A stretch of DNA of 44,026 nt, taken from NCBI GenBank assembly GCA_024275575.1, contig JAJRYV010000039.1, positions 1 through 44,026 on the forward strand, given 5' to 3'. The stretch is from a bacterium. Lineage in GTDB: Bacteria > Zhuqueibacterota > Zhuqueibacteria > Zhuqueibacterales > Geothermadaptataceae. Within the stretch, counting starts at the first letter, position 1; each line of letters opens with the position of its first letter. A program made the position numbers and the translations under genes. Below the pieces are notes generated by a model, which saw nothing but the letters and a program-made list of their open reading frames with translations, searched no databases and had not been told where the DNA came from. Of this stretch, positions 2,318-16,658 are shown piece by piece.

Positions 2318-4771
2318 ATGAACACGACAAAGCAGCAAAGCAAACATCGATTGTCCCGGCAGCAGATTTTGATTCGCACGGGTTTATTCCTGTTGGTGTT
2401 TATTCTTCTGAGTCGATGCGCCGGCCCGGTTTGGGAGCGGGTCGATTTAAAGCGGCGAACCGGCGACCCGGTCGCCGCCGAGCGCGAATTGCTGGCCCAT
2501 ATAAAGTTGCATCCTTCTGATGCAAAAGCTTTGTTTCTGCTCGGAGAAACGCGAGCGCAAATGGAAAACTGGCAAGGTATGATCGAAGCCTTCGATGAAT
2601 GCGAACGCTTCAATATCGATTGGCGCTGGGAGATTTTTGGCCGCAAGAACCATTACTGGCGTCGTAATTTTGAAGATGGATTGCATGCGCTGAAATCCCG
2701 CTCACTTCTGCGTGCCCGCAACCTGTTTGAAGCCTGTACAATTATTTTTTCCACCCGTGGACGCGGGTTTCGGCTCTTTGCGGAAACCAGCCTGGCGCTG
2801 GGAGATACCAGTGCGGCAATCGATGCATTCGTCTATACTTTACGCATTGATGACGAAGACGAACGCGCCCGTCGTTTTCTCATGACTACCTATTTTTACA
2901 CCGGCCAATACAATGAAGCCATCCATCACGCTGATTATATTCTTGGCAGAAAGAAAAACGACCTCGAAGCTTTGCGGGTGAAAGCATACAGCCTCGGTCT
3001 GCAAAAAAAACGGACTGAAGCGAACCAGGCTTATATGCAACTCATCAGCCTGCCCAACCAGCATATCGTCACCGACCTGACGAATTTCGCGGGTTACAAA
3101 TACAGCATGGGATTATACGCTGATGCAGCGCGCCTGCTGCGCCAGGCGATGGACTATGGCGCTGAAAAAAAAGAGACCCTCGAAGCGATTCTGCAGACGC
3201 GACTCATGCAACAGAATTATGTCGATCTCATGCGTGATGCTGAAGATTTGCTCGCCGTTGACAGCACCAGCATCAAAGGCCTGCAGCTCAAACAAATCGC
3301 TCAACTTGCGATGAGAAAACAGGATGAAGCCACCAGCACCGAACTGGCCTACCTCATCACCATGAGCACTCTGCGCCTGGCGATGAAAGATTACGGTGAA
3401 GTGATCAAAAACACCAACGAGGTTTTGCGCCAGGACAGCTTGCATATCAAAGCTTATGAACTGAAAATTGCGGCGCTGGATTCTTCCGACAAGAAAATAG
3501 AAGCACGCAAAAATGAAATGGAAATGCTGCATATCCTCACCGATAAAGCGGTTGAAAAAAATGATTATGAGAAAGTCATCAAATTTACTTCGCGCATTCT
3601 CGAGATCAATCCCATCGATCTCAACGCGATGAATCACAAAGATAAAGCTCATATCGCTCTCGGCAATATAAAGGCCGCAGACAGGACGCGCATCAAATAC
3701 TACTTTGCTCTCGCCGATATGCATGCGCAGAAAAAAGACTATAGCAGCCGTTTGCAAGATGCAAATTATATCCTGAACATCGAGTCGGACAATCTGGACG
3801 CCCTGAAAATAAAATGGGATGCCGAGGTTGCACTCGGAAACACAGGCGAGGCATTAAAGTCGGAGCTGGCATATTTAAATGCCCTGGCGGAATTCCAGAC
3901 GAAAAAGAAAGCGTTTACCAAAGTCATCGAAACCACCACACGTATCATCGAAATGGACAGTACAAACGCCCGCTCCAACGTATTAAAGCGGGACGCCCAC
4001 CTGGCGCTGAATCAGCGCAAGGAAGCCGTGCAGACTGAACTACGCCATTTTGAAACCATTGCCAATCGCCTACGCCAACAGGAAAAATACGCTGAATTAT
4101 TGGCCAAAGTCGATGATATTTTAATGCTGCAGCCGGAAAATTTGCACGCATTGGAATTGCGCATCATCGCTTACGAAGGGCTGAAACAGCCGGCACGGGT
4201 GAAAGCGGCAAAAATGAATTATCTGCTTGAAAAAGCGCGCCGGCAATCACCGGCACGTGAGTTCGATGCATTGCTGGCAACGGCTGAGGAATTGCTCGAA
4301 CTTGAACCGCGCAATACTTTCGGCCTGCAATTCCGCTATCTTGCCTTGCGCAACCTGGGACGTGCTGAAGAAGCTAAAAAAGGCGAACAGGTCTATTTGC
4401 ATGTGCTCGCTGAAAATTATGACCAGCGGCAGGAATGGCGAAAATTGCAAACCACCGCCTCAGCTTTGCTGAAATTCAACGCTGTGGATTCCGTTGCTGC
4501 TAATTTTAAAATAAAATCTCACGAAAAATTGGGCCAGCCTGAACAGGCCAGACAAACCCGGCTTGATTATCTCGAGGCGCTTTGTGGACGCTACGCAGTC
4601 GGTAAAAGATGGGATGAGATCATCGCCGTCACCCAGCACATGCTGCAGATTACCGACGATTACCTGCCTGCACTGAGGCTGCGCAAGAATGCTTTTTATT
4701 CCAAAGGTGAGTGGGAAATCGGTTCGCAACTGGAAAATCAAATCAAAGAATTAATGACAAGCAAACGATGA
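2318..4771 (+). CDS. Membrane-anchored helical-repeat (TPR-like) protein with nine 58-residue repeats
   Basis: The 817-aa protein starts with a basic stretch and one hydrophobic segment (residues ~20-36, ending LLSRCAGP). The Cys after Arg is a poor lipobox, so this is probably an N-terminal membrane anchor or atypical lipoprotein signal. Residues ~45-295 contain ordinary TPR-like helices. From residue 300 to the end, nine units follow each other at exactly 58 residues (starting at 300, 358, 416, 474, 532, 590, 648, 706 and 764, the last cut to 54). Each starts with an aromatic-rich turn (NYVDLM, DYGEVI, DYEKVI, KYAELL, RWDEII), then a motif like ILxLxPxNLxAL, then A-x-x-x-LG-x-x-x-EA. This suggests a long solenoid scaffold in the periplasm. 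The stop codon overlaps the next start (ATGA), so the two genes are translationally coupled. Specific function unknown. Confidence 0.85.
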   Translation: MNTTKQQSKHRLSRQQILIRTGLFLLVFILLSRCAGPVWERVDLKRRTGDPVAAERELLAHIKLHPSDAKALFLLGETRAQMENWQGMIEAFDECERFNIDWRWEIFGRKNHYWRRNFEDGLHALKSRSLLRARNLFEACTIIFSTRGRGFRLFAETSLALGDTSAAIDAFVYTLRIDDEDERARRFLMTTYFYTGQYNEAIHHADYILGRKKNDLEALRVKAYSLGLQKKRTEANQAYMQLISLPNQHIVTDLTNFAGYKYSMGLYADAARLLRQAMDYGAEKKETLEAILQTRLMQQNYVDLMRDAEDLLAVDSTSIKGLQLKQIAQLAMRKQDEATSTELAYLITMSTLRLAMKDYGEVIKNTNEVLRQDSLHIKAYELKIAALDSSDKKIEARKNEMEMLHILTDKAVEKNDYEKVIKFTSRILEINPIDLNAMNHKDKAHIALGNIKAADRTRIKYYFALADMHAQKKDYSSRLQDANYILNIESDNLDALKIKWDAEVALGNTGEALKSELAYLNALAEFQTKKKAFTKVIETTTRIIEMDSTNARSNVLKRDAHLALNQRKEAVQTELRHFETIANRLRQQEKYAELLAKVDDILMLQPENLHALELRIIAYEGLKQPARVKAAKMNYLLEKARRQSPAREFDALLATAEELLELEPRNTFGLQFRYLALRNLGRAEEAKKGEQVYLHVLAENYDQRQEWRKLQTTASALLKFNAVDSVAANFKIKSHEKLGQPEQARQTRLDYLEALCGRYAVGKRWDEIIAVTQHMLQITDDYLPALRLRKNAFYSKGEWEIGSQLENQIKELMTSKR

Positions 4772-7700
4772 AAAACAAAACCGGAAAATGTCTGAGTTTA
4801 AAACTTGCTGCCTTTGCCGTTTTAAGTCTGGTCTGTTTTCAGATTGCTTCGGCACAGAGCGCGCGCAGAATTCTCCGATCGAAGCCGGCACAGCATTCAA
4901 TCGTGGCTTCGGCGGGTGAACCTATCGAAATCACACTCAACCGTGAATTTCAGCGCTCTGAAAATTTTGAAAATTATATCTGGATCGTGGGCAATTATTA
5001 CGGCTACTATTTAAAACCCGGTGAAATTACTTTGCAGGGTTTCACCCTGGAAACCATCAATGCAAATACAACCTTAAAAATCACCTTGCCATTTGAGACG
5101 AGCTTCGCCGATGGTGAAGATATTTCCGTGCTCTTTCATCCGAATTTTTTCGATGACGGCAACGATGGCGCGCCGGTGCGTCTGAATTTTCGCGTGATGA
5201 CCAAAGCCGGCATTTCCTCGACAGGTTTCAACACCATCAATCTGCAACTGGATCCTGTCGCCGTGCAACCGGTGAAAGCCGTAGCCGCCAATCTTGATGA
5301 TGATGAATTTCTCGAAATTGCGCTGGTGAGCAGCATGAACAGCATCATCAGTATTTTCGACAATAAGAACAAAGACTTATCTCTCGTTTATTCCGACTCT
5401 GTGCTGGCGACCAGCGCTCTGGATGCAAAGAAATTATTGACCCCGCTCGATATCGCAGCGGCAGATTTCAACCGCGATGGATTTATGGACCTTGTCGTGC
5501 CATTTAAAGACAGCAGAACAGTGATTTTACTCTGGGGCAGCAGCGGTGAGACGCCTTCCTTTGACGCGAACAAGGTCGAGAGAATTAGCAATGCCGGGAT
5601 TTTGCCGCACGCCGTAAAACCGGTGGACTACAATACCGACGGCTGGATTGATTTACTCGTGGTTTCTCGCGGCGAAGACCGGGTTTATATTTTTGAAAAT
5701 AACAAAGGACAGGGAAGCGAAACCTTTTCACGGGTGCAGAAAGACCTCATCACCAGCGAAGGCCCGGTGATCGTCACCACAGGTGATTTTAACGCCGACG
5801 GCTTTATCGATTTTGCCACGGCTAATATCGCACGGCGCAATGTCAGCGTTTTCACCCAGAATATCGGCGGCTTCGGCAGCGCCAAAGTGGTGCAACTTCC
5901 TTTCCGCCCGGTGGATATTCAGGCTTTGAACATGCGCCAGCCCGCCAATCCTGATCAAACCGATTACCTTGAAATTGCGGTTTTATCATCGGATGTGCCC
6001 TATTTCGGCAAAACCCGCAATAGCGGCACCGGCACAGCGGCCGGCACACAACTGACACTGTTCGAATGGAACAGGCGAGGGGAAACATTTGTCAAATACG
6101 ACTCGGTGCAATTGCAGGATCAGGCGCTGTCTTTTGATGTTGCCGATCTCAACGGTGATTTCCGCGAAAAAGACGATATCCGCGATCATTTGCTCGATAT
6201 TGCCTTGAGCAGTTTTCGCGGTAACCGTATCGATTATGTTTTTAACTCAAATGGTAAAATCGGCAACATCCAGGAAGTAAAACCCATCGACAGCCCACTT
6301 TCCATTCTCGCGGCTGATTTAAATCAGGACGGCATTGAAGACCTGGTTTATACCGGTTATTACACCGGTGAACTGGTTTATTTGCGTTCATTCGGTTTGC
6401 CGAAACAAACATTCGATCATAATTTTGGCGATACATTTACTCATACCTGTAAAGTGGTCTATAAAGAATTTAGCCTGGACTCTCCTAATAGCGTTAAAGC
6501 CGAACTGAAGTGGGGCGATTTTGCAGATACAACATTTTTTAGCGTCACACCACTCACGGCCGACAGTTTGCCGCAAGACCCTGCAAATTTTGATATTATC
6601 GCACATAAACCGAATCTTTTCCTGCTCGAGTTCTGCCCGGGCGATACCGGGTTTTATCGGACAACCCTCGATATTGTCACTGTCCTCGATGAGGGTGAAG
6701 ACCACAGTACATTAACTCTGATCGGGCGGGGAACGGAGATCGAACTTACATTTGAACCGGATTCTCTTATTTTTCCGGTAACCCCGCCGGATACGTTCTC
6801 TACCACATTTGTTAACATTAACAACACGGTTAATGACACCTTGTTTCTCTACCGTATCTGGCGCCAACCGGCAATCGCTGAAATCACCCAGGACAAAACC
6901 GAACTCATGGTTTTGCCTTTCAGTGAGGATTCCATCGCATTTACGTTTGCTCCCAAGGACGAGGGCGACTATCACGACCGAATTTTCATCACCAGCAACG
7001 ACCCGGATAACCCACAGGTGGAAATCCCGGTTTACGGCAAGAGCACCCGTAACGACACCATTTATCTGCACAACCCGGAGATTCTGCTCACCGCAACTGA
7101 AGATGAACCTTTTGAAGTTTTGCTGGAGATTTCCGATCCTGACAGCGAAGAAAGCCAGGTGCTGTTTCGCATTGAAGACAATCCGGCGTGGATGCAGCTT
7201 TCAAAAAATAAACTCAGCGGCCTGGCGCAGGAAGGTGACACCACGGCGCATTTTAAGATCATTACCACCAAACTGCACGTGCGCTCGGAACACCAGCGAA
7301 CCATCGTCGTCGAGCCGGTGAACGACGCTCCCTATTTTATTTACATGCCGGACACCACGATTAAAGAAAACGTCTTGTTTGAATTCGAAATCTGCGCCAC
7401 CGACGATGAGGATTCAACGTTGACCGTTGGTGTCGTCGAAGAGGACCTGAATTCGCCGAGTCTTTTCGATCCGGAACGTGACAACGGTGAACCGCCGAGT
7501 TTCCACCTAACCGGGCGCAATTGCGCTGTCTTTCGCTGGGTGCCGCCCTTTGGTAAAGCCGGCAATGACTTTCAGGTGACTTTCTGGGTTGAAGACGAGG
7601 AGTTTCGCGGTGAAACACGCATTGAAGCACAGATGTACATGCATGTCTACCGGGCTAAACCCGATTTAATTTTAACCGACTTCCGTTTTGCCGAGCCAAT

Positions 7701-8271
7701 TTACAGTCTGGGGCAAACAGCGCAATTGACGGCAACTTTCGAGCTTGTCAATGCGCCGATTTTAGCGACGGAAAAATTTTCCGCTCAGATTGCACAAGGC
7801 TTTCGCCTGCTTAATTCTGTTGAGTTTTCCGGGCCCTTAAGCATTGGCTTTGCAGATTCGGTAACCGGAACGCTTTATCTCGACCGTACCGGGGAATTTA
7901 TTTTTGAAGCATTTGTCGACAGTGACAAACGCATCGTCGAAGTCGATGAATTTAATAACCAGGCGCAGATATCCATGGATGTGGACATCGGCAATCTCAG
8001 TGTACACCCGAACCCGTTTTCGCCCAATGGCGACGGTATCAACGACGTCCTGTATTTTGATTTGACACAGCTCGTGCGCATGCAGCCGAAAGTCGAAATT
8101 TTCACACTGCGCGGGCAACTCTTGCAGAAACTGGAATATGCCGGCGGCAACAGCATCGCCTGGAACGGCAAAGATTCCCGTGGCCGTGAAATGATACCGG
8201 GCGTTTATCTGTGGATCGTACACAATGATAATAAAGAAATAGGGCACGGTTATGTGGTACTCGCACGCTAA
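4768..8271 (+). CDS. Secreted FG-GAP/CARDB surface protein with type-B-like C-terminal sorting domain
   Basis: The 1167-aa protein begins at the ATG overlapping the previous stop; an in-frame ATG at 4711 would put 19 polar residues before the signal peptide. A signal peptide ends near residue 29 (ASA/QS). A first Ig-like domain (~35-160) is followed by about five FG-GAP/VCBS repeats (~165-545) with calcium-loop motifs such as DFNRDGFMD, DYNTDGWID and DFNADGFID. Then come an Ig-like segment typical of choice-of-anchor proteins (~640-765), two cadherin-like segments (~770-950), a CARDB-like domain (~955-1070) and a terminal FlgD/CHU_C-like domain starting at ~1080 with PNPFSPNGDGIND. That last motif resembles gliding-associated type B sorting domains of T9SS substrates. 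Encoded next to a PorP/SprF-like protein, it is probably exported to the cell surface. Ligand unknown. Confidence 0.85.
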   Translation: MKNKTGKCLSLKLAAFAVLSLVCFQIASAQSARRILRSKPAQHSIVASAGEPIEITLNREFQRSENFENYIWIVGNYYGYYLKPGEITLQGFTLETINANTTLKITLPFETSFADGEDISVLFHPNFFDDGNDGAPVRLNFRVMTKAGISSTGFNTINLQLDPVAVQPVKAVAANLDDDEFLEIALVSSMNSIISIFDNKNKDLSLVYSDSVLATSALDAKKLLTPLDIAAADFNRDGFMDLVVPFKDSRTVILLWGSSGETPSFDANKVERISNAGILPHAVKPVDYNTDGWIDLLVVSRGEDRVYIFENNKGQGSETFSRVQKDLITSEGPVIVTTGDFNADGFIDFATANIARRNVSVFTQNIGGFGSAKVVQLPFRPVDIQALNMRQPANPDQTDYLEIAVLSSDVPYFGKTRNSGTGTAAGTQLTLFEWNRRGETFVKYDSVQLQDQALSFDVADLNGDFREKDDIRDHLLDIALSSFRGNRIDYVFNSNGKIGNIQEVKPIDSPLSILAADLNQDGIEDLVYTGYYTGELVYLRSFGLPKQTFDHNFGDTFTHTCKVVYKEFSLDSPNSVKAELKWGDFADTTFFSVTPLTADSLPQDPANFDIIAHKPNLFLLEFCPGDTGFYRTTLDIVTVLDEGEDHSTLTLIGRGTEIELTFEPDSLIFPVTPPDTFSTTFVNINNTVNDTLFLYRIWRQPAIAEITQDKTELMVLPFSEDSIAFTFAPKDEGDYHDRIFITSNDPDNPQVEIPVYGKSTRNDTIYLHNPEILLTATEDEPFEVLLEISDPDSEESQVLFRIEDNPAWMQLSKNKLSGLAQEGDTTAHFKIITTKLHVRSEHQRTIVVEPVNDAPYFIYMPDTTIKENVLFEFEICATDDEDSTLTVGVVEEDLNSPSLFDPERDNGEPPSFHLTGRNCAVFRWVPPFGKAGNDFQVTFWVEDEEFRGETRIEAQMYMHVYRAKPDLILTDFRFAEPIYSLGQTAQLTATFELVNAPILATEKFSAQIAQGFRLLNSVEFSGPLSIGFADSVTGTLYLDRTGEFIFEAFVDSDKRIVEVDEFNNQAQISMDVDIGNLSVHPNPFSPNGDGINDVLYFDLTQLVRMQPKVEIFTLRGQLLQKLEYAGGNSIAWNGKDSRGREMIPGVYLWIVHNDNKEIGHGYVVLAR

Positions 8272-10069
8272 AAAAAATACTTTCCTGCTGTTATTATACA
8301 GCAGCACAACCGCACTGTTTGGTCAGATAGCCGGCGCCGATATGCCGGTTGGTCCAACGGATGTCTATGACTGGCGTGCTGTCCGCGTCAACCCGGCGAT
8401 CGCCGGATTGCAGAGCGGCGCTTTCGAGGTTGGCTACCGTGTATTTTACGCCGGATTTGCCGATGCTGGAACAAGCTTGCTCAAATCCGGCTACATGATA
8501 CTCAACGTGCCGCGACGTTTGCCGTGGGAGCTCAGCGGTGGTCTGACGACAACGATTTTTTCAACCCCTATTTTAAAAGAAAACGAGATTCACTTTTTCC
8601 TCAGCAAAAGAGTCTCGCCGTATATCACCATGGGCTTTTCGTGCGGTGCTTTCAATATCAATTATCAAACAGACCGGTTTTTTTACGACGCCGGCGACGT
8701 CGTCGATGATCCGGTCTTTGCCGGCGGCAGCAGCCTGTGGAAATTCGACATGGGATTAGGGCTGACATATACGCCCACATCTTCGATCATCATCGGCCTC
8801 GGCGTACAACATCTCACACGGCCAAATATTTCATTGATCGGTGATGATGTATATCTCAACCCGACGCTGACACTCGGCTTAAAATTTCATATCGACCGTG
8901 TCGCTATCCATACAACGGCCAGTGTTGACAGAATTCATTCCGGCAGCGGTACCATCCTGCAGATGAACCATAGCGAGTTAGGTACGGCGCACCTCGGCAT
9001 CGATAATAACCAGATCTGGACACGAGGACGCCTGAATGTTCGCGGGCCCTTCAGTTTTGCCTACGGCATGTATTTTCCCATCAACGATTTTGCCGGCCAG
9101 GGCGCCGGCAGCCATGAAATCGCGTTTATTTATGAATTTGACCGGCAACTGCGCAAATTCAGCCTCAGCGAAGACCCAGAGGACTGGCAGGAATTTCTGC
9201 CGCCGATGCCGACAATTCGCGTCGAACCGCAAATAATTGTCTGGGCGGATGGCAACGAAAACGTCGATATCATTTCAAAAACAATAATACGTGATCTCAA
9301 AACCGAACTCGACAGCACAGCACGTTCAAGATTGACTCCCTTCGATTTGGGGCTCGTGGATTCCATCAATTCCAAAAGCAAAACGACTCATTTCGAACCA
9401 CATAAATACTCAAATCTGGAAAAAGAAAAAACACCATCCAAAGAATATGTTGTTGGTGAAACGAGTGTGAAATTTCTCGATAACCTTGCTGTGGATTTGC
9501 GTAATGACAGCACCAAATCAGCTTACATCGTCTCCCCGAATTCATCGGATGAAAGAGAGTATCTGATGGGGGAATATTTACAAGAACAGCAAAAAGTGCC
9601 GCGTGAGCGATTTGGCATAAATGAAGAACGTCGGGATATCAATATCGATAACTCCATTTGGATCAAATACTTGCAGGATAAGAAAATATCCAAATATGAC
9701 AAATTCACTTTTGCGCTGCCTGATACCCTGGTCATTACCGTTTTTCCAATCGATTCAAGCATGAATGCACATCCATGGACTTTTGTTGTTGAAAATATGG
9801 AGCAAGATACCGTATTTTCAGTCAAAGGCAAATGCAGCGAAATCCGCAAGGTCAAATGGGATTGGCGGGGGACGGATGGAAATATTATTCCATATGGATT
9901 TTATAAGTATTATATTTCATGGGTTGATCATGCCGGCCGCTTGCGCCAATCTTCCCAACGAATAATTTATGCGCGACAGTTGGAAAGTAAAATTTATATT
10001 GAAATCAGCAAAGACTACCCTCAACCGGATGAAAAAGACCGAGTTCCGGGATTATTATTAAATAAATAA
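8252..10069 (+). CDS. PorP/SprF-like outer-membrane protein with C-terminal FlgD-like domain
   Basis: The 605-aa protein overlaps the preceding gene by 20 bp, so the pair is coupled. A signal peptide (residues ~8-25, ending LFGQ) precedes a PorP/SprF-type beta-barrel region (~30-310) with the characteristic early VNPAIAGLQSG segment, alternating amphipathic strands and a GLGLTYTPTSSIIIGLGVQHL-like strand pair. After a polar linker (~320-480), residues ~490-585 form a FlgD-like Ig fold (WDWRGTDGNIIPYGFYKYYI). Known PorP/SprF proteins are about 300-350 aa, so the C-terminal half is an addition. In T9SS, SprF-like proteins assist export or surface anchoring of type B substrates, which matches the upstream neighbour. 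The family call is by eye and fairly confident; the role in this system is inferred. Confidence 0.8.
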   Translation: MWYSHAKKNTFLLLLYSSTTALFGQIAGADMPVGPTDVYDWRAVRVNPAIAGLQSGAFEVGYRVFYAGFADAGTSLLKSGYMILNVPRRLPWELSGGLTTTIFSTPILKENEIHFFLSKRVSPYITMGFSCGAFNINYQTDRFFYDAGDVVDDPVFAGGSSLWKFDMGLGLTYTPTSSIIIGLGVQHLTRPNISLIGDDVYLNPTLTLGLKFHIDRVAIHTTASVDRIHSGSGTILQMNHSELGTAHLGIDNNQIWTRGRLNVRGPFSFAYGMYFPINDFAGQGAGSHEIAFIYEFDRQLRKFSLSEDPEDWQEFLPPMPTIRVEPQIIVWADGNENVDIISKTIIRDLKTELDSTARSRLTPFDLGLVDSINSKSKTTHFEPHKYSNLEKEKTPSKEYVVGETSVKFLDNLAVDLRNDSTKSAYIVSPNSSDEREYLMGEYLQEQQKVPRERFGINEERRDINIDNSIWIKYLQDKKISKYDKFTFALPDTLVITVFPIDSSMNAHPWTFVVENMEQDTVFSVKGKCSEIRKVKWDWRGTDGNIIPYGFYKYYISWVDHAGRLRQSSQRIIYARQLESKIYIEISKDYPQPDEKDRVPGLLLNK

Positions 10070-10570: not shown

Positions 10571-12214
10571 GTGAAAAAACAAAAACTTATCAGCCTGGCA
10601 GCACTGTTGCTGACAAGCCTGCTACTCCTGACCGTACCGGCGGCATCAATGCCTTTTATGCAGCAGGATTCAGCAGCAGCAACGCTGCAGAATAGCTCAA
10701 ATGCAGCCGTTCAGGAAAAAGACAGCAGCCAACAATCACAAGATGAAACGGTCAGCATGCTCAAGAGCGCTCTGAAAGGCAATGTAGCTTCGGCAAAAAC
10801 GTTTTGGCAATTGACAACTACAGGTGGAAATGTTGCTTATGTCATTCTCGGTGTTTTATGCCTTGGACTTCTGATCATCGCTTTCAAAGCGGTCAAAATT
10901 ACTTTCGACTGGCATTATTCAAAGGATCTGGTACAAGTCGATTTTAAGCAACTGGAGCTCACTGAAATCGAAGCCCAGGTTAAAAAGTCGCGTAAATCGA
11001 CGATGCGGCAAATGATGGAATATATTCTTGGGTTTTACCGTGCCGGCGGCGATTCCATGAGTGTGCAACAGGAGCTAACGACTTTTGTGGATTTAAAAAA
11101 CGACCAGTTCGAATCTTACCGCAACTGGGTAAATTTCCTTTCAGACTCGGCCGGAGGTCTTGGTCTGCTGGGAACCGTGTGGGGGATTTTTCAAACATTC
11201 TTCGGCGGCGATCTCGATCCTGATAAAATTCTCAACGGCATGGCTGTAGCGCTGATCACCACTTTATTCGGCGTCATCGTGAGTTTGATTCTCAACCTCG
11301 GTGCGACGCAAACTTTCAGTTCCTTCTCCAACCGTTTGGAGCAGATTTCTGACAAAGGCGATGAATTGCGTTTGTATCTTTTGCAGCTCAATACTAAAAA
11401 CGGCAGGACAACCGGTTATATGGCGCCGGCGCTGAGCACAGAATCGGGCGAAGCCACGCAAATGGCGACCAGCGGCAATGCGACAGTGTTGGAACAAACA
11501 GTCGAACGTATTGAAAAAGCCATTCTGTCGTTGGGCGATGGCGCCGCACCGTCCCGGGAAAACGGTCAGAAAAGCAAATCGCCGAAAATTTCGGTGCATG
11601 CGGTGGAACCGCTATTTTCTTCGATTCGCACAGGGGAAACGTTGAAAAAAGTGCTCAAGCTGCAGGCCGAAGACCGCGCCAACCGGCCACTGGAGCACAC
11701 CAGAATCAGTCTCGAAACCCAGGGTCCGCTCTTTTTTGAAGGTAAAAAACGCGAACTTGAAATCGAAACAGATAAAACCGGCCACGCTGAAATCACCATG
11801 GTCGGCGGAAAAAAAGTGAGCACAGCCAGTGTTTCATTCTGGATTTCCGGCGACCAGGAACATCGGGAAAATCTGGAGATCAAATTATATCCCAACACCC
11901 CCTCGCAGCTCATCATTCAGCGCGGTGATAACCAGCCCGGACGCATTGGTCAACGCCTGACCCAACCGCTGCAGGTGCTGGCGCGGGATCAGTTCGGCAA
12001 CCCTGTTCCCGACGCCGAAGTGACTTTCCGTCTGGCGCAGGGCGAGGGCGCTCTGAATGGCGGCGCCCGGGATTTCTCCACCAGCACCAATGAATTCGGC
12101 ATTACTGAAGCTGATTTTACTTTGAGTGACAGAACCGGGTTTCATTGCGTTGAGGCGTCCCTGAAAGATGATCACGGCGAAACCGTTAAATTCCATATTT
12201 TAGGCACGGCGTAA
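10571..12214 (+). CDS. ExbB/TolQ/MotA-family proton channel with C-terminal Ig-like (Big_1) domains
   Basis: The 547-aa protein starts at GTG with AGGGAG seven bases upstream. A signal peptide (1-26) and a Gln/Ser-rich linker precede TM1 (~86-107). A cytoplasmic domain (~108-189) leads to TM2 (~190-212, with GLLGTVWGI) and TM3 (~222-246, with ALITTLFGVIVSL), the hallmark helices of the ExbB/TolQ family including the channel Thr residues. ExbB proteins are usually 220-250 aa. Here ~300 residues follow TM3: a coiled linker (~255-335), an Ig-like segment (~340-445) and an invasin-type Big_1 domain (~446-547, with ARDQFGNPVPDAEVTF). By standard ExbB topology this tail would lie in the cytoplasm, an odd place for such a domain. 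It is probably the stator channel of a proton-driven motor with the two ExbD-like proteins downstream. Confidence 0.88.
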   Translation: MKKQKLISLAALLLTSLLLLTVPAASMPFMQQDSAAATLQNSSNAAVQEKDSSQQSQDETVSMLKSALKGNVASAKTFWQLTTTGGNVAYVILGVLCLGLLIIAFKAVKITFDWHYSKDLVQVDFKQLELTEIEAQVKKSRKSTMRQMMEYILGFYRAGGDSMSVQQELTTFVDLKNDQFESYRNWVNFLSDSAGGLGLLGTVWGIFQTFFGGDLDPDKILNGMAVALITTLFGVIVSLILNLGATQTFSSFSNRLEQISDKGDELRLYLLQLNTKNGRTTGYMAPALSTESGEATQMATSGNATVLEQTVERIEKAILSLGDGAAPSRENGQKSKSPKISVHAVEPLFSSIRTGETLKKVLKLQAEDRANRPLEHTRISLETQGPLFFEGKKRELEIETDKTGHAEITMVGGKKVSTASVSFWISGDQEHRENLEIKLYPNTPSQLIIQRGDNQPGRIGQRLTQPLQVLARDQFGNPVPDAEVTFRLAQGEGALNGGARDFSTSTNEFGITEADFTLSDRTGFHCVEASLKDDHGETVKFHILGTA

Positions 12215-12631
12215 ATGAGCAAAAAACGCAAATATTTTAAAGGCGGTATGATGATCAGGCTGGTCGATGTGGTTTTTATCCTGCTCTTCGGATTTATCGC
12301 CATCTCCAAAGTTGAGAAAATGAGCCGCATCGAATTGCCGAAAAGTGAAACCGTTGCCGGGCGCCCGTTAAACAGGGAAACGGTGGTTTTTATTGGCGTT
12401 TTACCGAACGGGCATTATCTCGTGGAAAATGAAACCATCGATATCGGCGATGAAAAAAGCCTGAATTATTATCTGAGAACAAAACGTGATGCCCTTGCTG
12501 CCAACGGTGTGCGCATGCGTGTTCGGGTTCGCGCCAACCATGATGCTGCAGTGAAGCACGCATTTATTCTGGTGAAAAAATGCCAGAAAATGAATGTCAA
12601 AGTCGGCATTGAAGTCATCAAAAAAAGTTGA
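12215..12631 (+). CDS. ExbD/TolR-like motor protein, first copy
   Basis: This 138-aa protein starts directly after the stop codon of the ExbB-like gene. A short basic N-terminus leads into one membrane helix (~13-30, IRLVDVVFILLFGFIAI) with Asp18 at the place of the essential proton-carrying Asp of ExbD and TolR. The rest (~45-138) is a small periplasmic domain of the ExbD type. It should pair with the ExbB-like channel to convert the proton gradient into motion of partner proteins. It differs from the second copy downstream outside the membrane helix, so they are probably distinct subunits. A small GGATG/CATCC hairpin (12635-12648) follows the gene. Confidence 0.85.
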   Translation: MSKKRKYFKGGMMIRLVDVVFILLFGFIAISKVEKMSRIELPKSETVAGRPLNRETVVFIGVLPNGHYLVENETIDIGDEKSLNYYLRTKRDALAANGVRMRVRVRANHDAAVKHAFILVKKCQKMNVKVGIEVIKKS

Positions 12632-12673: not shown

Positions 12674-13099
12674 ATGAATAGTGGATTAATCATTCGACTG
12701 GTTGATATCGTTTTGATCATTTTGTTCGGTTTTATCGGCATCAGCGATATCAAAGTCAAACGGCAGATCAAAGTGCCCGGGAAGACGGTAGAGAGCGAAA
12801 CACCACAGGAAAACTTGAAAAATAATACCATGATCGTCGTCGATTTTTATGATGATGATCTATATATTTTTTCCATCGATAACAAGGAAATCGGCCGTAC
12901 TTTCGGGTTGAGCAAGGCGTATACAAAATTTCTGGAATATCGCCGGCACTACAAAAAAGATTCATCGGGCGTCGTTTTTATTTTACGCCCGAACGAGACA
13001 GTCACCATGCAGCAGACCATCGATGTTTTTGATATCTGTGAAAAAGAAAAATTACAAAAGGGCATCGATTTTAATTTAACGGGAACAGTGCTCAAATGA
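12674..13099 (+). CDS. ExbD/TolR-like motor protein, second copy
   Basis: The 141-aa protein has an almost bare N-terminus and one membrane helix (~6-24, IIRLVDIVLIILFGFIGI) carrying Asp11, the conserved proton-binding position. The periplasmic part (~30-141) is acidic and differs from the first copy except for the overall ExbD-like beta-alpha pattern. The stop overlaps the start of the TonB-like gene (ATGA at 13096-13099), so translation is coupled. One TolQ-type with two different TolR-type subunits is the arrangement of the Myxococcus AglR-AglQ-AglS gliding motor, which gives a useful comparison but not proof of the same role. Confidence 0.85.
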   Translation: MNSGLIIRLVDIVLIILFGFIGISDIKVKRQIKVPGKTVESETPQENLKNNTMIVVDFYDDDLYIFSIDNKEIGRTFGLSKAYTKFLEYRRHYKKDSSGVVFILRPNETVTMQQTIDVFDICEKEKLQKGIDFNLTGTVLK

Positions 13100-14118
13100 C
13101 TGAAGTCTATCGTGAAAAAGTCATTCCCTCGATCGTAACGGCGATACTCATCACCATTGTCTTTATCATCATGCAGGTGTTGACACTGCCGCAAAAAAAT
13201 ATCGCTGACATCTATCGCAAGTTTGATGAAAGCGTCTGGAAACAGTTCGAACCACCGGAGATCAAAAAAGAAGAACCGGAGCCTGAACCTGAAAAGATCG
13301 AGCCAGAAGAGATCGTGGAAGAGATCAGCGAACCGGAGACAGTCATTGAAGAAATCGACAGGATTCTTGAAGAAGACCTTGCCGTGCTTGATGATTTGCC
13401 CCTCGAAGATTTGAGCATGGAAAAAAGTGACCTTGGCCTCGATGATATTATGGATACCGATTTGCTGGAATCGGCGGTAGCCCCTCTCCCCGGCCTCGGT
13501 CTCGATGAATACGGTGATGATGATGTTTCTCTCATCCCCATAAAAAAGGGTTCGGGGGGTGATGATGACCTGAGGTCTGTGGAAAGCGGCCGTGGCGGCA
13601 CCGGCATTCGGGGATATTCCAGCGGTAACGAATCCAGCACAGTGACCCGGAAAAAAAAGATCAACAACGAATTGGAAATCAACCTGAAACCCCGTCGCAG
13701 TCTTTCCAGCCTCGAAATACAGAACAAAGTTTACAAAGCCCTGGTAAAATGGTTGAAGAAAAATCAAAAACCTCTGCGGCCGGTCATGCAGACATTTTTA
13801 GGTTATAGCAACAGCCGCGGCGCTTTGACCACGCACGCGGTTTTCAGCGCCGGAGGACGCAGCTTTGAGCTTTACATCTTGTGTATCGAAAAAGGGACTG
13901 AAGTTCGCATTGCGCTCGTCGAGGGGAACAAGGTGATCCGGATGGTGGATCAGGGATTTTCCAAGAGTAGCGACCAATTACGTACAGGCACGGTAGATCG
14001 CGATGAGGCCGGTAGAATATTTAAATTCGGAACACGTCTGCAGCCAACCGGCAGTGCAAAAAACAAGGAGTTTTACAATATATTTATTTCATGGTGGGAA
14101 AATCAGAAAAAACAATGA
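13096..14118 (+). CDS. TonB-like inner-membrane energy-transducing protein, divergent C-terminus
   Basis: The 340-aa protein has one membrane helix (~10-32), then a Pro/Glu-rich stretch (~50-85, with EEPEPEPEKIEPEE) like the rigid periplasm-spanning segment of TonB. An acidic, Gly-rich linker (~90-200) and a basic C-terminal domain (~205-340) follow. That domain includes SLSSLEIQNKVYKALVKWL, which resembles the helix that opens TonB/TolA C-terminal folds. I do not see the usual TonB C-terminal motifs. It overlaps the upstream ExbD-like gene by 4 bp. The likely role is to carry force from the ExbB/ExbD motor across the periplasm to an outer-membrane partner, possibly the PorP-like protein. The partner is inferred only from gene order. 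Confidence 0.75.
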   Translation: MTEVYREKVIPSIVTAILITIVFIIMQVLTLPQKNIADIYRKFDESVWKQFEPPEIKKEEPEPEPEKIEPEEIVEEISEPETVIEEIDRILEEDLAVLDDLPLEDLSMEKSDLGLDDIMDTDLLESAVAPLPGLGLDEYGDDDVSLIPIKKGSGGDDDLRSVESGRGGTGIRGYSSGNESSTVTRKKKINNELEINLKPRRSLSSLEIQNKVYKALVKWLKKNQKPLRPVMQTFLGYSNSRGALTTHAVFSAGGRSFELYILCIEKGTEVRIALVEGNKVIRMVDQGFSKSSDQLRTGTVDRDEAGRIFKFGTRLQPTGSAKNKEFYNIFISWWENQKKQ

Positions 14119-14164: not shown

Positions 14165-15694
14165 ATGAGATTTACCGGTAACCGACTTTTTGCAGCAATC
14201 CTGATTTATATCCTGATTTTAATTTTCAGCGGGTGTGCTCCGAAACAACTAACGACCATCGTTTATATCCCTGCCGGCGTCGATACGACGATTGCAGAGA
14301 TCGCCGATTCCATCGCAAAGGAACTCTTTGTCGAATGGAAAAATGAACAGCTTGCGAACCGGCTCACCGATTCGGCTGCCACCATATTTAAAATAAGCGA
14401 TTCATTGCTAACTGCGTTGCGAGCGGATACAGCCCAAAAGACACAAACGAGCGCGGAAGATTCTGTTAAAGCGCTAAAAAAATTAATCGATGGCGCCAGG
14501 GTGATGAAACAAATCAAAGGTATTACCGCGAACCGAAATTTAAGCACTGCTGAAAAACGGGCGCAAATTCAAAACAAGCTGGAAGCGGCAAAACCACTGC
14601 TGGAACAGGCGATATCGCTCAACCCTTTTGACCGGCGTGCACGCAATGTGCTGTCACAGGTGTATCAAAATTTAGGCAAACTTTTCGCGCAAGAACACTA
14701 TTGGGGGAAATCGATTGAAGTTTTGTCCAAACTTGTCTTTATGGACCAGAGTCAGCATTCACTTTTTGCACGCCTGGGCAACGCTTATATGCGGTTGAAT
14801 TCCTGGGAAAAAGCGCTGAAAAATTATCAAATCGCCGAGGAAGTCTTGCAGCAATCTGCGATCTATCAGGTTCCCCAAAACATCGCGCTCACGGATTCTG
14901 CGATCGCCGCCACGCTGGATTCGACCAAACTGTTTGCCTATGTTTTTCGTCAGGCTATCTGCACGATGCGACTTTACCGGGAGCCGGAAACATTCGCCCT
15001 GCTTGAGAAAGGCATGCGAATCGCCCAAAATGAGGCGAACAGGGAATTGATTCAAGACTATTATGATTGGGCGATGTGGGACGATGGCAATCTCGAAACT
15101 ACAGACCGCCGTGATACGCTGCTCGCCTGGGTGGGCAAGAAACGCTTCGATGCCGCAGCTCAGGGCATGGAACTATTGCTGCCGAATTTACGCACCAAAC
15201 GGGCTGCCCAGGAAATAAAATGGCGCCTGGCCCGACTGCGTTTTGCACGCCTTTCCCGGGAAGAGAGCGGTTTGAACTTGATGAAAGAAATCATCGATTT
15301 CTACCAGCATGACAGCACCGGTATGGCGCTGGCCAAAGAGGACAGCATGTTATTAAAATATCAGGATGCTTTCGGCACCATGTGTTACAATGTCGGCGCC
15401 AAATGCCGGGATGAAGAACGAGACCGGGTAAAGGCGTTAAAATATTTTATGCAGTCAGCGGCAATTCCCTGGGGCCACCAGGCAAAAGCCTGGCTTGCAG
15501 TCGCCCAATTATCAATTCAAAACCCCGCTCGCTCAGAAAAGGCAGCTTTAGAAGCATTAGCGCTGGAATCACAGTTGAACGACAAAGAATACGCATCAAC
15601 GATGGAGATACTCATCAGTGCATTACGATTGCAGCGCAAAACAAAAGAAGCAAGCAAACGTTTTAAGGAATGGCAAGCTCTTGTGAGGAAATAA
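14165..15694 (+). CDS. TPR lipoprotein of the motor cluster
   Basis: The start at ATG 14165 is chosen because AAGGTGGAG lies nine bases upstream and a lipoprotein signal follows directly; the open frame extends upstream to 14003, inside the TonB-like gene, but that would bury the signal. The 509-aa product has a hydrophobic signal ending IFSGC, a good lipobox with Cys24. Residues ~35-160 are Asp/Ala-rich and probably helical. TPR-like helices cover ~145-260 (LEQAISLNPFDRRARNVL, then LARLGNAYMRLNSWEKALKNY) and much of the rest. It is probably attached to a membrane facing the periplasm, where it could link motor and outer-membrane parts. It resembles other envelope TPR lipoproteins only in general features. 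Confidence 0.8.
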   Translation: MRFTGNRLFAAILIYILILIFSGCAPKQLTTIVYIPAGVDTTIAEIADSIAKELFVEWKNEQLANRLTDSAATIFKISDSLLTALRADTAQKTQTSAEDSVKALKKLIDGARVMKQIKGITANRNLSTAEKRAQIQNKLEAAKPLLEQAISLNPFDRRARNVLSQVYQNLGKLFAQEHYWGKSIEVLSKLVFMDQSQHSLFARLGNAYMRLNSWEKALKNYQIAEEVLQQSAIYQVPQNIALTDSAIAATLDSTKLFAYVFRQAICTMRLYREPETFALLEKGMRIAQNEANRELIQDYYDWAMWDDGNLETTDRRDTLLAWVGKKRFDAAAQGMELLLPNLRTKRAAQEIKWRLARLRFARLSREESGLNLMKEIIDFYQHDSTGMALAKEDSMLLKYQDAFGTMCYNVGAKCRDEERDRVKALKYFMQSAAIPWGHQAKAWLAVAQLSIQNPARSEKAALEALALESQLNDKEYASTMEILISALRLQRKTKEASKRFKEWQALVRK

Positions 15695-15695
15695 A

Positions 15696-16658
15696 ATGAG
15701 GAACAATTCACAGGTTTTAGGCCTGCTTTTCTCGGGATTTGTATTCTTTTCTGCACAGCCTGTCGCTGCGCAAACAGTCATCATCCAAACAGGTGTGCAA
15801 CCGGTCGTTGTAGAACAGAAAGTTGTCGCCATGGCGATCGTGCGCGATCGGCCGATCATTCAGATGATCCTTGAGGAGAATACGCTGCCGGGGTTCGACC
15901 CCGATTCGGTGGAATATCTGCAAATACTGGATGCCACCAACAACGGTTTCGGTGACGAAGATATCGTCGTGGTCTTCCCGTGGCAGAAAGCCTACACATT
16001 TTTTGCCAGTCCGAGGCTGAAGGAAAACATGAAAACGTGGGAAGTCAGTTCGGGAAATGAAGTAATCACAGAAAACCGCGAACCGCAGTATTTTGAGCAA
16101 AAGAAAGCGGCTGATTCAACCGAAATGGCCAAAAACTGGATGCTCGCCAGTATTTTGCGCGGGGTCAATAATAACTACAGCGATATTCCGATGAAAATCT
16201 ATTTCGAGCGTAAAAGCGACGGCACGATCAAATTCAATACCTGGGGATACAGTCGAAAAAAAGAAGCGCTCAAGTGGAAAAAACCGCAATACATGCCCGG
16301 CCAGGCGGCTAATAATCCCAAAGTAATTCATATCAGCCGTGTTGATTCAGTGACCACATATATTGCCAATACAACCCTGTATGATCAGATTTATATCTAT
16401 CAGCAAACACGGGATACCGTCTACATCGCTGCTGATTCGACGAAGTTGACGGCATCCAGGATGATCTCGACAAAGTTTCAGCCGGGACTGGTGCCGCCGC
16501 CCCCACCCTCATCGCTGGAATTGCCAATCGATTCCCCTGGCGTTCTGCCGGACAGCACGGCCGCCGGTTCGAATCGGGTTTTGCAGGATACAACAGCTAT
16601 CGATCAGTTAAAATTACAAAAGCTGCTCGATGAGAATCTGCCGGAGAAGAAAAAATAA
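15696..16658 (+). CDS. Exported protein of unknown family, last gene of the motor cluster
   Basis: The 320-aa product starts one base after the previous stop, with GAGGAAA inside the end of that gene as ribosome binding site. A signal peptide ends near residue 25 (PVAAQ). The body (~28-235) is a mixed alpha/beta domain I do not recognise, with a segment EDIVVVFPWQKAYTFFASPR and a Trp-rich stretch WGYSRKKEALKWKKP. A Pro-rich tail (~265-275, PPPPP) and a charged C-terminus follow. No lipobox is visible. Its position last in the operon invites comparison with GldN/PorN of T9SS, but I see no GldN motifs and do not make that call. It is probably periplasmic. Confidence 0.7.
   Translation: MRNNSQVLGLLFSGFVFFSAQPVAAQTVIIQTGVQPVVVEQKVVAMAIVRDRPIIQMILEENTLPGFDPDSVEYLQILDATNNGFGDEDIVVVFPWQKAYTFFASPRLKENMKTWEVSSGNEVITENREPQYFEQKKAADSTEMAKNWMLASILRGVNNNYSDIPMKIYFERKSDGTIKFNTWGYSRKKEALKWKKPQYMPGQAANNPKVIHISRVDSVTTYIANTTLYDQIYIYQQTRDTVYIAADSTKLTASRMISTKFQPGLVPPPPPSSLELPIDSPGVLPDSTAAGSNRVLQDTTAIDQLKLQKLLDENLPEKKK

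Follow-up and report, generated by a model that had tools for sequence, protein, structure and literature searches.

A probably TPR-derived tail of nine in-register units with a 58-residue period in a predicted membrane-anchored protein of a conserved Calditrichota gene cluster

The gene located at positions 2318..4771 on the forward strand of the analysed window (the whole stretch of DNA, 44,026 nucleotides) encodes an 817-aa TPR protein with a repeat tail; its ortholog (L003/L043) is 58% identical. The tail consists of nine in-register units which follow each other with a period of 58 residues, and modelling indicates that it is very probably a TPR-derived array with three helices per unit. 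The gene is the first of a conserved nine-gene Calditrichota cluster. We consider it fairly probable that an amplified TPR-variant tail is combined here with an outer-membrane-anchored periplasmic scaffold of the machine which this cluster encodes.

Residues 1-39 (2318..2434, +) represent the N-terminal signal/anchor, and the alignment places Cys34 at the lipobox position. This cysteine is invariant among the aligned orthologs, while its surroundings vary: the lipobox is canonical (ACQ) in the short orthologs, SRC in our protein and FQC in L003. The 817-aa protein is strongly predicted to be secreted and membrane-anchored, and, as judged from its sequence, it is a putative lipoprotein lipidated at Cys34 within a non-canonical lipobox (LLSRC). 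Residues 40-299 (2435..3214, +) form a canonical TPR domain, which is supported by the helix pairs in the AlphaFold2 (AF2) model and by Pfam matches exceeding the cut-offs (TPR_14, 27.8 against 23.5; TPR_19, 28.2 against 25; ANAPC3, 28.4 against 27.2). This domain is orthologous to proteins of 335-411 aa, the products of the syntenic gene at the equivalent cluster position in other Calditrichota families.

Period and predicted fold of the repeat tail

The tail starts at residue 300, which corresponds to base 3215, and runs on the same strand to base 4768. Self-similarity and AF2 define eight units of 58 aa: unit 1 (residues 300-357, 3215..3388), unit 2 (358-415, 3389..3562), unit 3 (416-473, 3563..3736), unit 4 (474-531, 3737..3910), unit 5 (532-589, 3911..4084), unit 6 (590-647, 4085..4258), unit 7 (648-705, 4259..4432) and unit 8 (706-763, 4433..4606). 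The terminal unit 9 (residues 764-817, 4607..4768) comprises 54 aa, and the short orthologs have a C-terminal module of equal length. An earlier note on this DNA had described nine gapless units of exactly 58 residues from residue 300; the unit starts and their initial residues agree with its list and the length is exact for units 1-8, but the ninth has only 54 residues, where the protein ends.

The period is pronounced in the amino acid sequence. The mean BLOSUM62 self-similarity of the tail reaches +0.79, +0.77 and +0.79 at shifts of 58, 116 and 174 residues, respectively, whereas it averages -0.72 (sd 0.24) across shifts 10-199. The z values of the three peaks are 6.3-6.4; no further shift in the tail rises above z = 1.3. 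The combined score for the period of 58 is 0.71, compared with a maximum of -0.57 among 300 shuffles in which periods of 54-62 were considered. A shift of 34 is not raised, in line with the previous statement that the spacing differs from that of the standard TPR. The suggestion that the copies have diverged under strictly kept length also holds true: identity between units averages 21% (13-34%), and there is no indel between units in the ortholog. Tandem Repeats Finder revealed no DNA-level repeat in the tail and, given the low identity between units, this means that the array is old.

None of the Pfam TPR models reaches its cut-off in the tail (TPR_1 scores 15.4 against 27.8 bits, and TPR_9 15.4 against 35); by its period and by profile score, the tail falls outside the TPR family. 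Pfam DUF4919 (PF16266) scores the tail, including unit 3, above the curated cut-off (39.1 and 38.4 against 29 bits), although the match is partial, comprising about 75 of the 186 profile positions, and the best stretches correspond to profile positions 55-118 or 44-114. A literature search found no named 58-residue helical repeat, and the absence of a named family with this period from the earlier note's reading thus stands.

In AF2 models built on 6-8 sequences, the tail is a regular array of helices. The model of three units (six aligned segments) has a pLDDT of 95.8 and recurring helices at positions 2-15, 20-32 and 36-56. In the full-length model (pLDDT 89.7, pTM 0.45), the pattern of 14, 13 and 21 residues extends throughout the tail, with the exceptions of unit 6, where the long helix has 19 residues, and unit 9, which closes with a 16-residue helix; the TPR region preceding the tail is mostly two-helix. 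The long helix is predicted to be unbroken, at 19-21 residues, in each of the eight units followed by another. Hence, the regular alpha solenoid proposed from the sequence is supported by the prediction, as is the relation to TPRs, which is evident from both the two-unit profile and local superposition, while the proposed “TPR hairpin plus extra helix pair” has to be replaced: AF2 gives a hairpin plus one helix, that is, three helices per unit.

The two-unit profile aligns with designed consensus TPRs without gaps over 34-49 residues (E 1.5e-7), and the aligned span begins in the latter half of the long helix, takes in both helices that follow and reaches into the first part of the long helix after them. 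Because this alignment is ungapped and the long helix is continuous, the unit in the model is a canonical TPR followed by a truncated TPR, whose B helix continues as the A helix of the following TPR with no intervening loop (34 + 24 = 58). The truncation leaves the unit about 10 residues short of two TPRs. Residues 58-170 of the three-unit model are fitted by Bacillus RapF at 2.4 Å over 102 residues, and local stacking therefore falls into the TPR-like range. The full model follows classical TPR arrays well through the N-terminal domain and unit 1 (8chy, residues 76-352, 5.9 Å over 253 residues), but alignments extending past unit 1 mostly have a much larger rmsd. Foldseek and VIA searches with the three units and with the full protein returned TPR-like matches, and their lists contained no solved structure recognised as having three helices in a period of 58 residues; a sequence search of solved structures yielded ordinary TPR proteins only.

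An alternative to this reading is that the tail represents a long canonical TPR superhelix in a degenerate state, with the 58 residues being paired 34-residue TPRs that suffered deletions and possess no distinct architecture. This could account for the agreement of the two-unit profile with consensus TPR proteins, for the predominance of TPR proteins among the Foldseek matches and for the ordinary TPR domain in the N-terminal half, but we consider it unlikely, since the 34-residue periodicity is missing in the tail, all the Pfam TPR models remain below cut-off there, and the long helix is predicted to be unbroken in every unit that is followed by another. Moreover, while pieces of about 70 residues of the three-unit model fit solved TPRs locally at about 2 Å, the rmsd is mostly 9-15 Å for alignments with solved TPR arrays when nearly all three units are covered.

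With regard to the preferred reading of the unit as one full and one truncated TPR, the odd number of helices means that adjoining units should point in opposite directions, if the predicted helices are stacked antiparallel. One can go further and suggest that the tail would represent a distinct class of alpha solenoid, in which a shared helix is the outer (B) helix of one TPR and, at the same time, the inner (A) helix of its successor, the binding face would alternate between units, and the shape would be that of an extended rod instead of a grooved superhelix. Such a rod would be a periplasmic spacer in a Calditrichota machine that connects an ExbBD-TonB motor with a surface protein of the type-B T9SS route; this extended, model-based version appears to us rather unlikely as a whole.

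Distribution and origin of the array

When the two-unit profile was searched against 82 genomes of the phylum, strong matches were found in two congeneric genomes only, and the third genome of this genus (98% complete) gave no match; a tblastn search against plasmids did not find the array. The array ortholog originates from one congeneric MAG, Calditrichaeota bacterium isolate CLD5 3052 (QQUM01000725.1), where the 58% identity extends across the whole protein and all nine units are in register. Units of the same number are 45-72% identical between the two species, while pairs of different number are 11-33% identical. Since the same-number units are the closest, the array was complete before the two species split, and no homogenisation has occurred since then.

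Identity between the two array genes at the three codon positions is 61/74/38%, which indicates purifying selection on the gene. In the tail, dN is 0.40 compared with 0.18 in residues 61-240 (dS is saturated), and therefore the tail changes faster than the TPR domain while its length is kept.

When the unit profile was moved without gaps along seven proteins of the nearest family, it fitted best at exactly the last 54 residues (z 4.8-5.2), where the short protein of this family closes with one copy of the unit. Other TPR stretches in the short proteins are scored by this profile as well, taking the second rank in family f2 and the top rank in f7, and in more distant families they outscore the C-terminal module. 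The array is likely the product of successive duplications of this C-terminal module in an ancestor of 340-410 aa, and it looks like a genus-level amplification. The C-terminal origin is supported, without being proved, because the profile picks the last 54 residues in the nearest family only. A single operon position thus offers a “before and after” case, which lacks the array in related families and harbours nine in-register copies in one genus, so that both the emergence of a repeat solenoid and the shift of TPR from a period of 34 to one of 58 residues by the loss of one loop are directly testable here.

The gene cluster and its type IX secretion context

Eight further genes follow on the forward strand. 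The nearest (4768..8271) encodes an FG-GAP protein (FG-GAP_3, 3e-22) with a C-terminal CHU_C domain for T9SS type B sorting (3e-8), which scores 34.1 against the Pfam cut-off of 27 and, for the NCBIfam model TIGR04131, 28.6 against 35, that is, below cut-off. Its ATG overlaps the stop codon of the 817-aa gene (ATGA), and the same arrangement is found in L043, L044 and L045 (the ortholog and f2 genomes). It is followed by a PorP/SprF-like outer-membrane protein with a C-terminal extension (8252..10069), for which Pfam PF11751 is above cut-off (26.7 against 22.3) and NCBIfam TIGR03519 is below (32.4 against 90.55). The putative motor genes comprise an ExbB/TolQ/MotA-type proton-channel protein with a Big_1 domain (10571..12214; PF01618, 7e-15; PF02369, 4e-11), two ExbD proteins (12215..12631 and 12674..13099; PF02472, 1e-8 and 1e-6) and a TonB-like protein (13096..14118), recognised by reading its sequence, which has an N-terminal TM segment and a proline/glutamate-rich stretch, and no family match. 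The cluster is completed by a second TPR protein, likely a lipoprotein, with weak TPR matches below cut-off (14165..15694), and by a protein with a signal peptide that has no Pfam or NCBIfam match and belongs to an unknown family (15696..16658); these two and the TonB-like protein are conserved in the cluster, the protein of unknown family being present in most copies of the cluster.

Several features of the region deserve mention in their own right. The ExbB-type protein carries C-terminal Big_1/invasin-like Ig domains, an uncommon addition to a protein of the proton-channel type. The cluster is immediately preceded by an ISNCY-family transposase (180-1553), which is encoded on the opposite strand; what lies upstream in the ortholog contig is instead a gene whose product has a T9SS type A-like region at its C-terminal end. 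The cluster copies in L045, L058 and L053 (two f2 genomes and one f20 genome) have no ExbB/ExbD match within the cluster, and these copies may have lost or moved their motor genes.

The cluster genes are conserved in families f1, f2, f5, f7, f11, f17 and, with no motor detected, f20, and also beyond the class, and the syntenic TPR gene lies immediately upstream of the others in five of these families (f1, f2, f7, f11 and f20). Strong matches to the PorP cluster were found in about 19 of the 82 phylum genomes. The SprA/Sov translocon is present in the same genome as the array (SprA_N, 1.7e-58) and in 77 of 81 phylum genomes, and these different frequencies rule out that the cluster is the general T9SS motor of the phylum. 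For GldL and GldM, nothing scored over cut-off in 80 genomes, in a search that had no positive control; the T9SS motor of Calditrichota may differ. No publication on type IX secretion in Calditrichota turned up in the library searched.

Proposed role and known systems

In Bacteroidota, the TPR-containing lipoprotein PorE binds PorP, which in turn binds a type-B CTD protein (PMC9143113), while SprF carries the moving adhesin SprB (PMC9143113; PMC12635249), and the LM motor of T9SS is homologous to ExbBD (PMC10202324). By analogy, we tentatively suggest that the 817-aa protein could be a scaffold between a proton-driven motor and a surface protein. The location, partners and spacer role that we infer for it would be as follows: the ExbB/ExbD/TonB-type proton motor may act on the PorP/SprF-like barrel, and this barrel would carry the FG-GAP surface protein sorted by the type-B T9SS route; the TPR part (residues 40-299) would dock the barrel, and the repeat tail would serve as a spacer or an extended docking surface directed from the outer membrane towards the motor. 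The tail is evidently non-essential to the machine, because short orthologs suffice for the cluster elsewhere and the array occurs in two genomes only. More generally, the cluster suggests that in Calditrichota, where the type IX translocon is present, a type-B surface protein is driven by a dedicated motor of the ExbBD-TonB type.

The tail might instead be a chaperone-like receptor that binds peptides or proteins and collects the type-B substrate before export, its capacity being set by the repeat number. Peptide binding is common among TPR domains, and the gene both adjoins and overlaps that of the type-B sorted protein; nevertheless, a receptor of this kind seems somewhat unlikely, as sequence change is faster in the tail than in the N-terminal TPR domain, few positions of the tail are conserved besides those which are apparently structural, and the short orthologs do without it. 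Much less probable is that the 817-aa protein works elsewhere as a general periplasmic TPR protein and stands beside the cluster by chance: genomes of the class do hold other TPR lipoproteins weakly similar to the N-terminal half (for example, the C51 paralog adjoining a methylthioribose-1-phosphate isomerase-like gene), but the orthologs keep their neighbour order across several families and beyond the class, and start and stop codons overlap with the type-B gene. The probability that the array results from misassembled repeats is negligible, even though both assemblies are fragmented and at least one is metagenome-derived; such an artefact, as well as a recent DNA duplication, is ruled out by the 21% identity between units, by the lack of a DNA-level repeat and by the same nine units in an independent assembly.

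When the proposed spacer tail of the scaffold is compared with known repeat proteins, the TPR solenoids (CTPR designs, MamA, PilF/PilW, OGT and LGN) share with it the stacking of helices and TPR-like residues. The difference is that the tail has three helices per 58 residues and TPRs have two per 34, that the predicted tail lacks the loop between the B helix and the following A helix, and that global superposition is poor beyond the fused helices. DUF4919 exceeds the cut-off in both array proteins on stretches of about one unit; however, only profile positions from about 44 to 118 of 186 are matched, and the remaining domain is missing from the tail. Among TPR-like arrays with longer helices (Bacillus RapF, alpha/gamma-SNAP and Ski3), RapF fits the tail model locally, and viral gamma-SNAP-like models have a TM-score to the tail above that of most TPR models. 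No sequence relationship was found between the tail and RapF, alpha/gamma-SNAP or Ski3, and we know of no three-helix sequence period in these proteins.

As for the secretion machinery, a further lipoprotein, described as TPR-containing, is comparable with our protein, although its gene neighbourhood differs. It connects the Sov/SprA translocon with the PorK/N ring (PMC9143113, PMC10202324). PorE resembles the role proposed here in that it is an outer-membrane-associated TPR lipoprotein whose working partners are a PorP-type barrel and a CTD protein of type B (PMC9143113). It differs by its additional domains, as Pfam detected no beta-propeller, regulatory-like or OmpA-like peptidoglycan-binding domain in the 817-aa protein.
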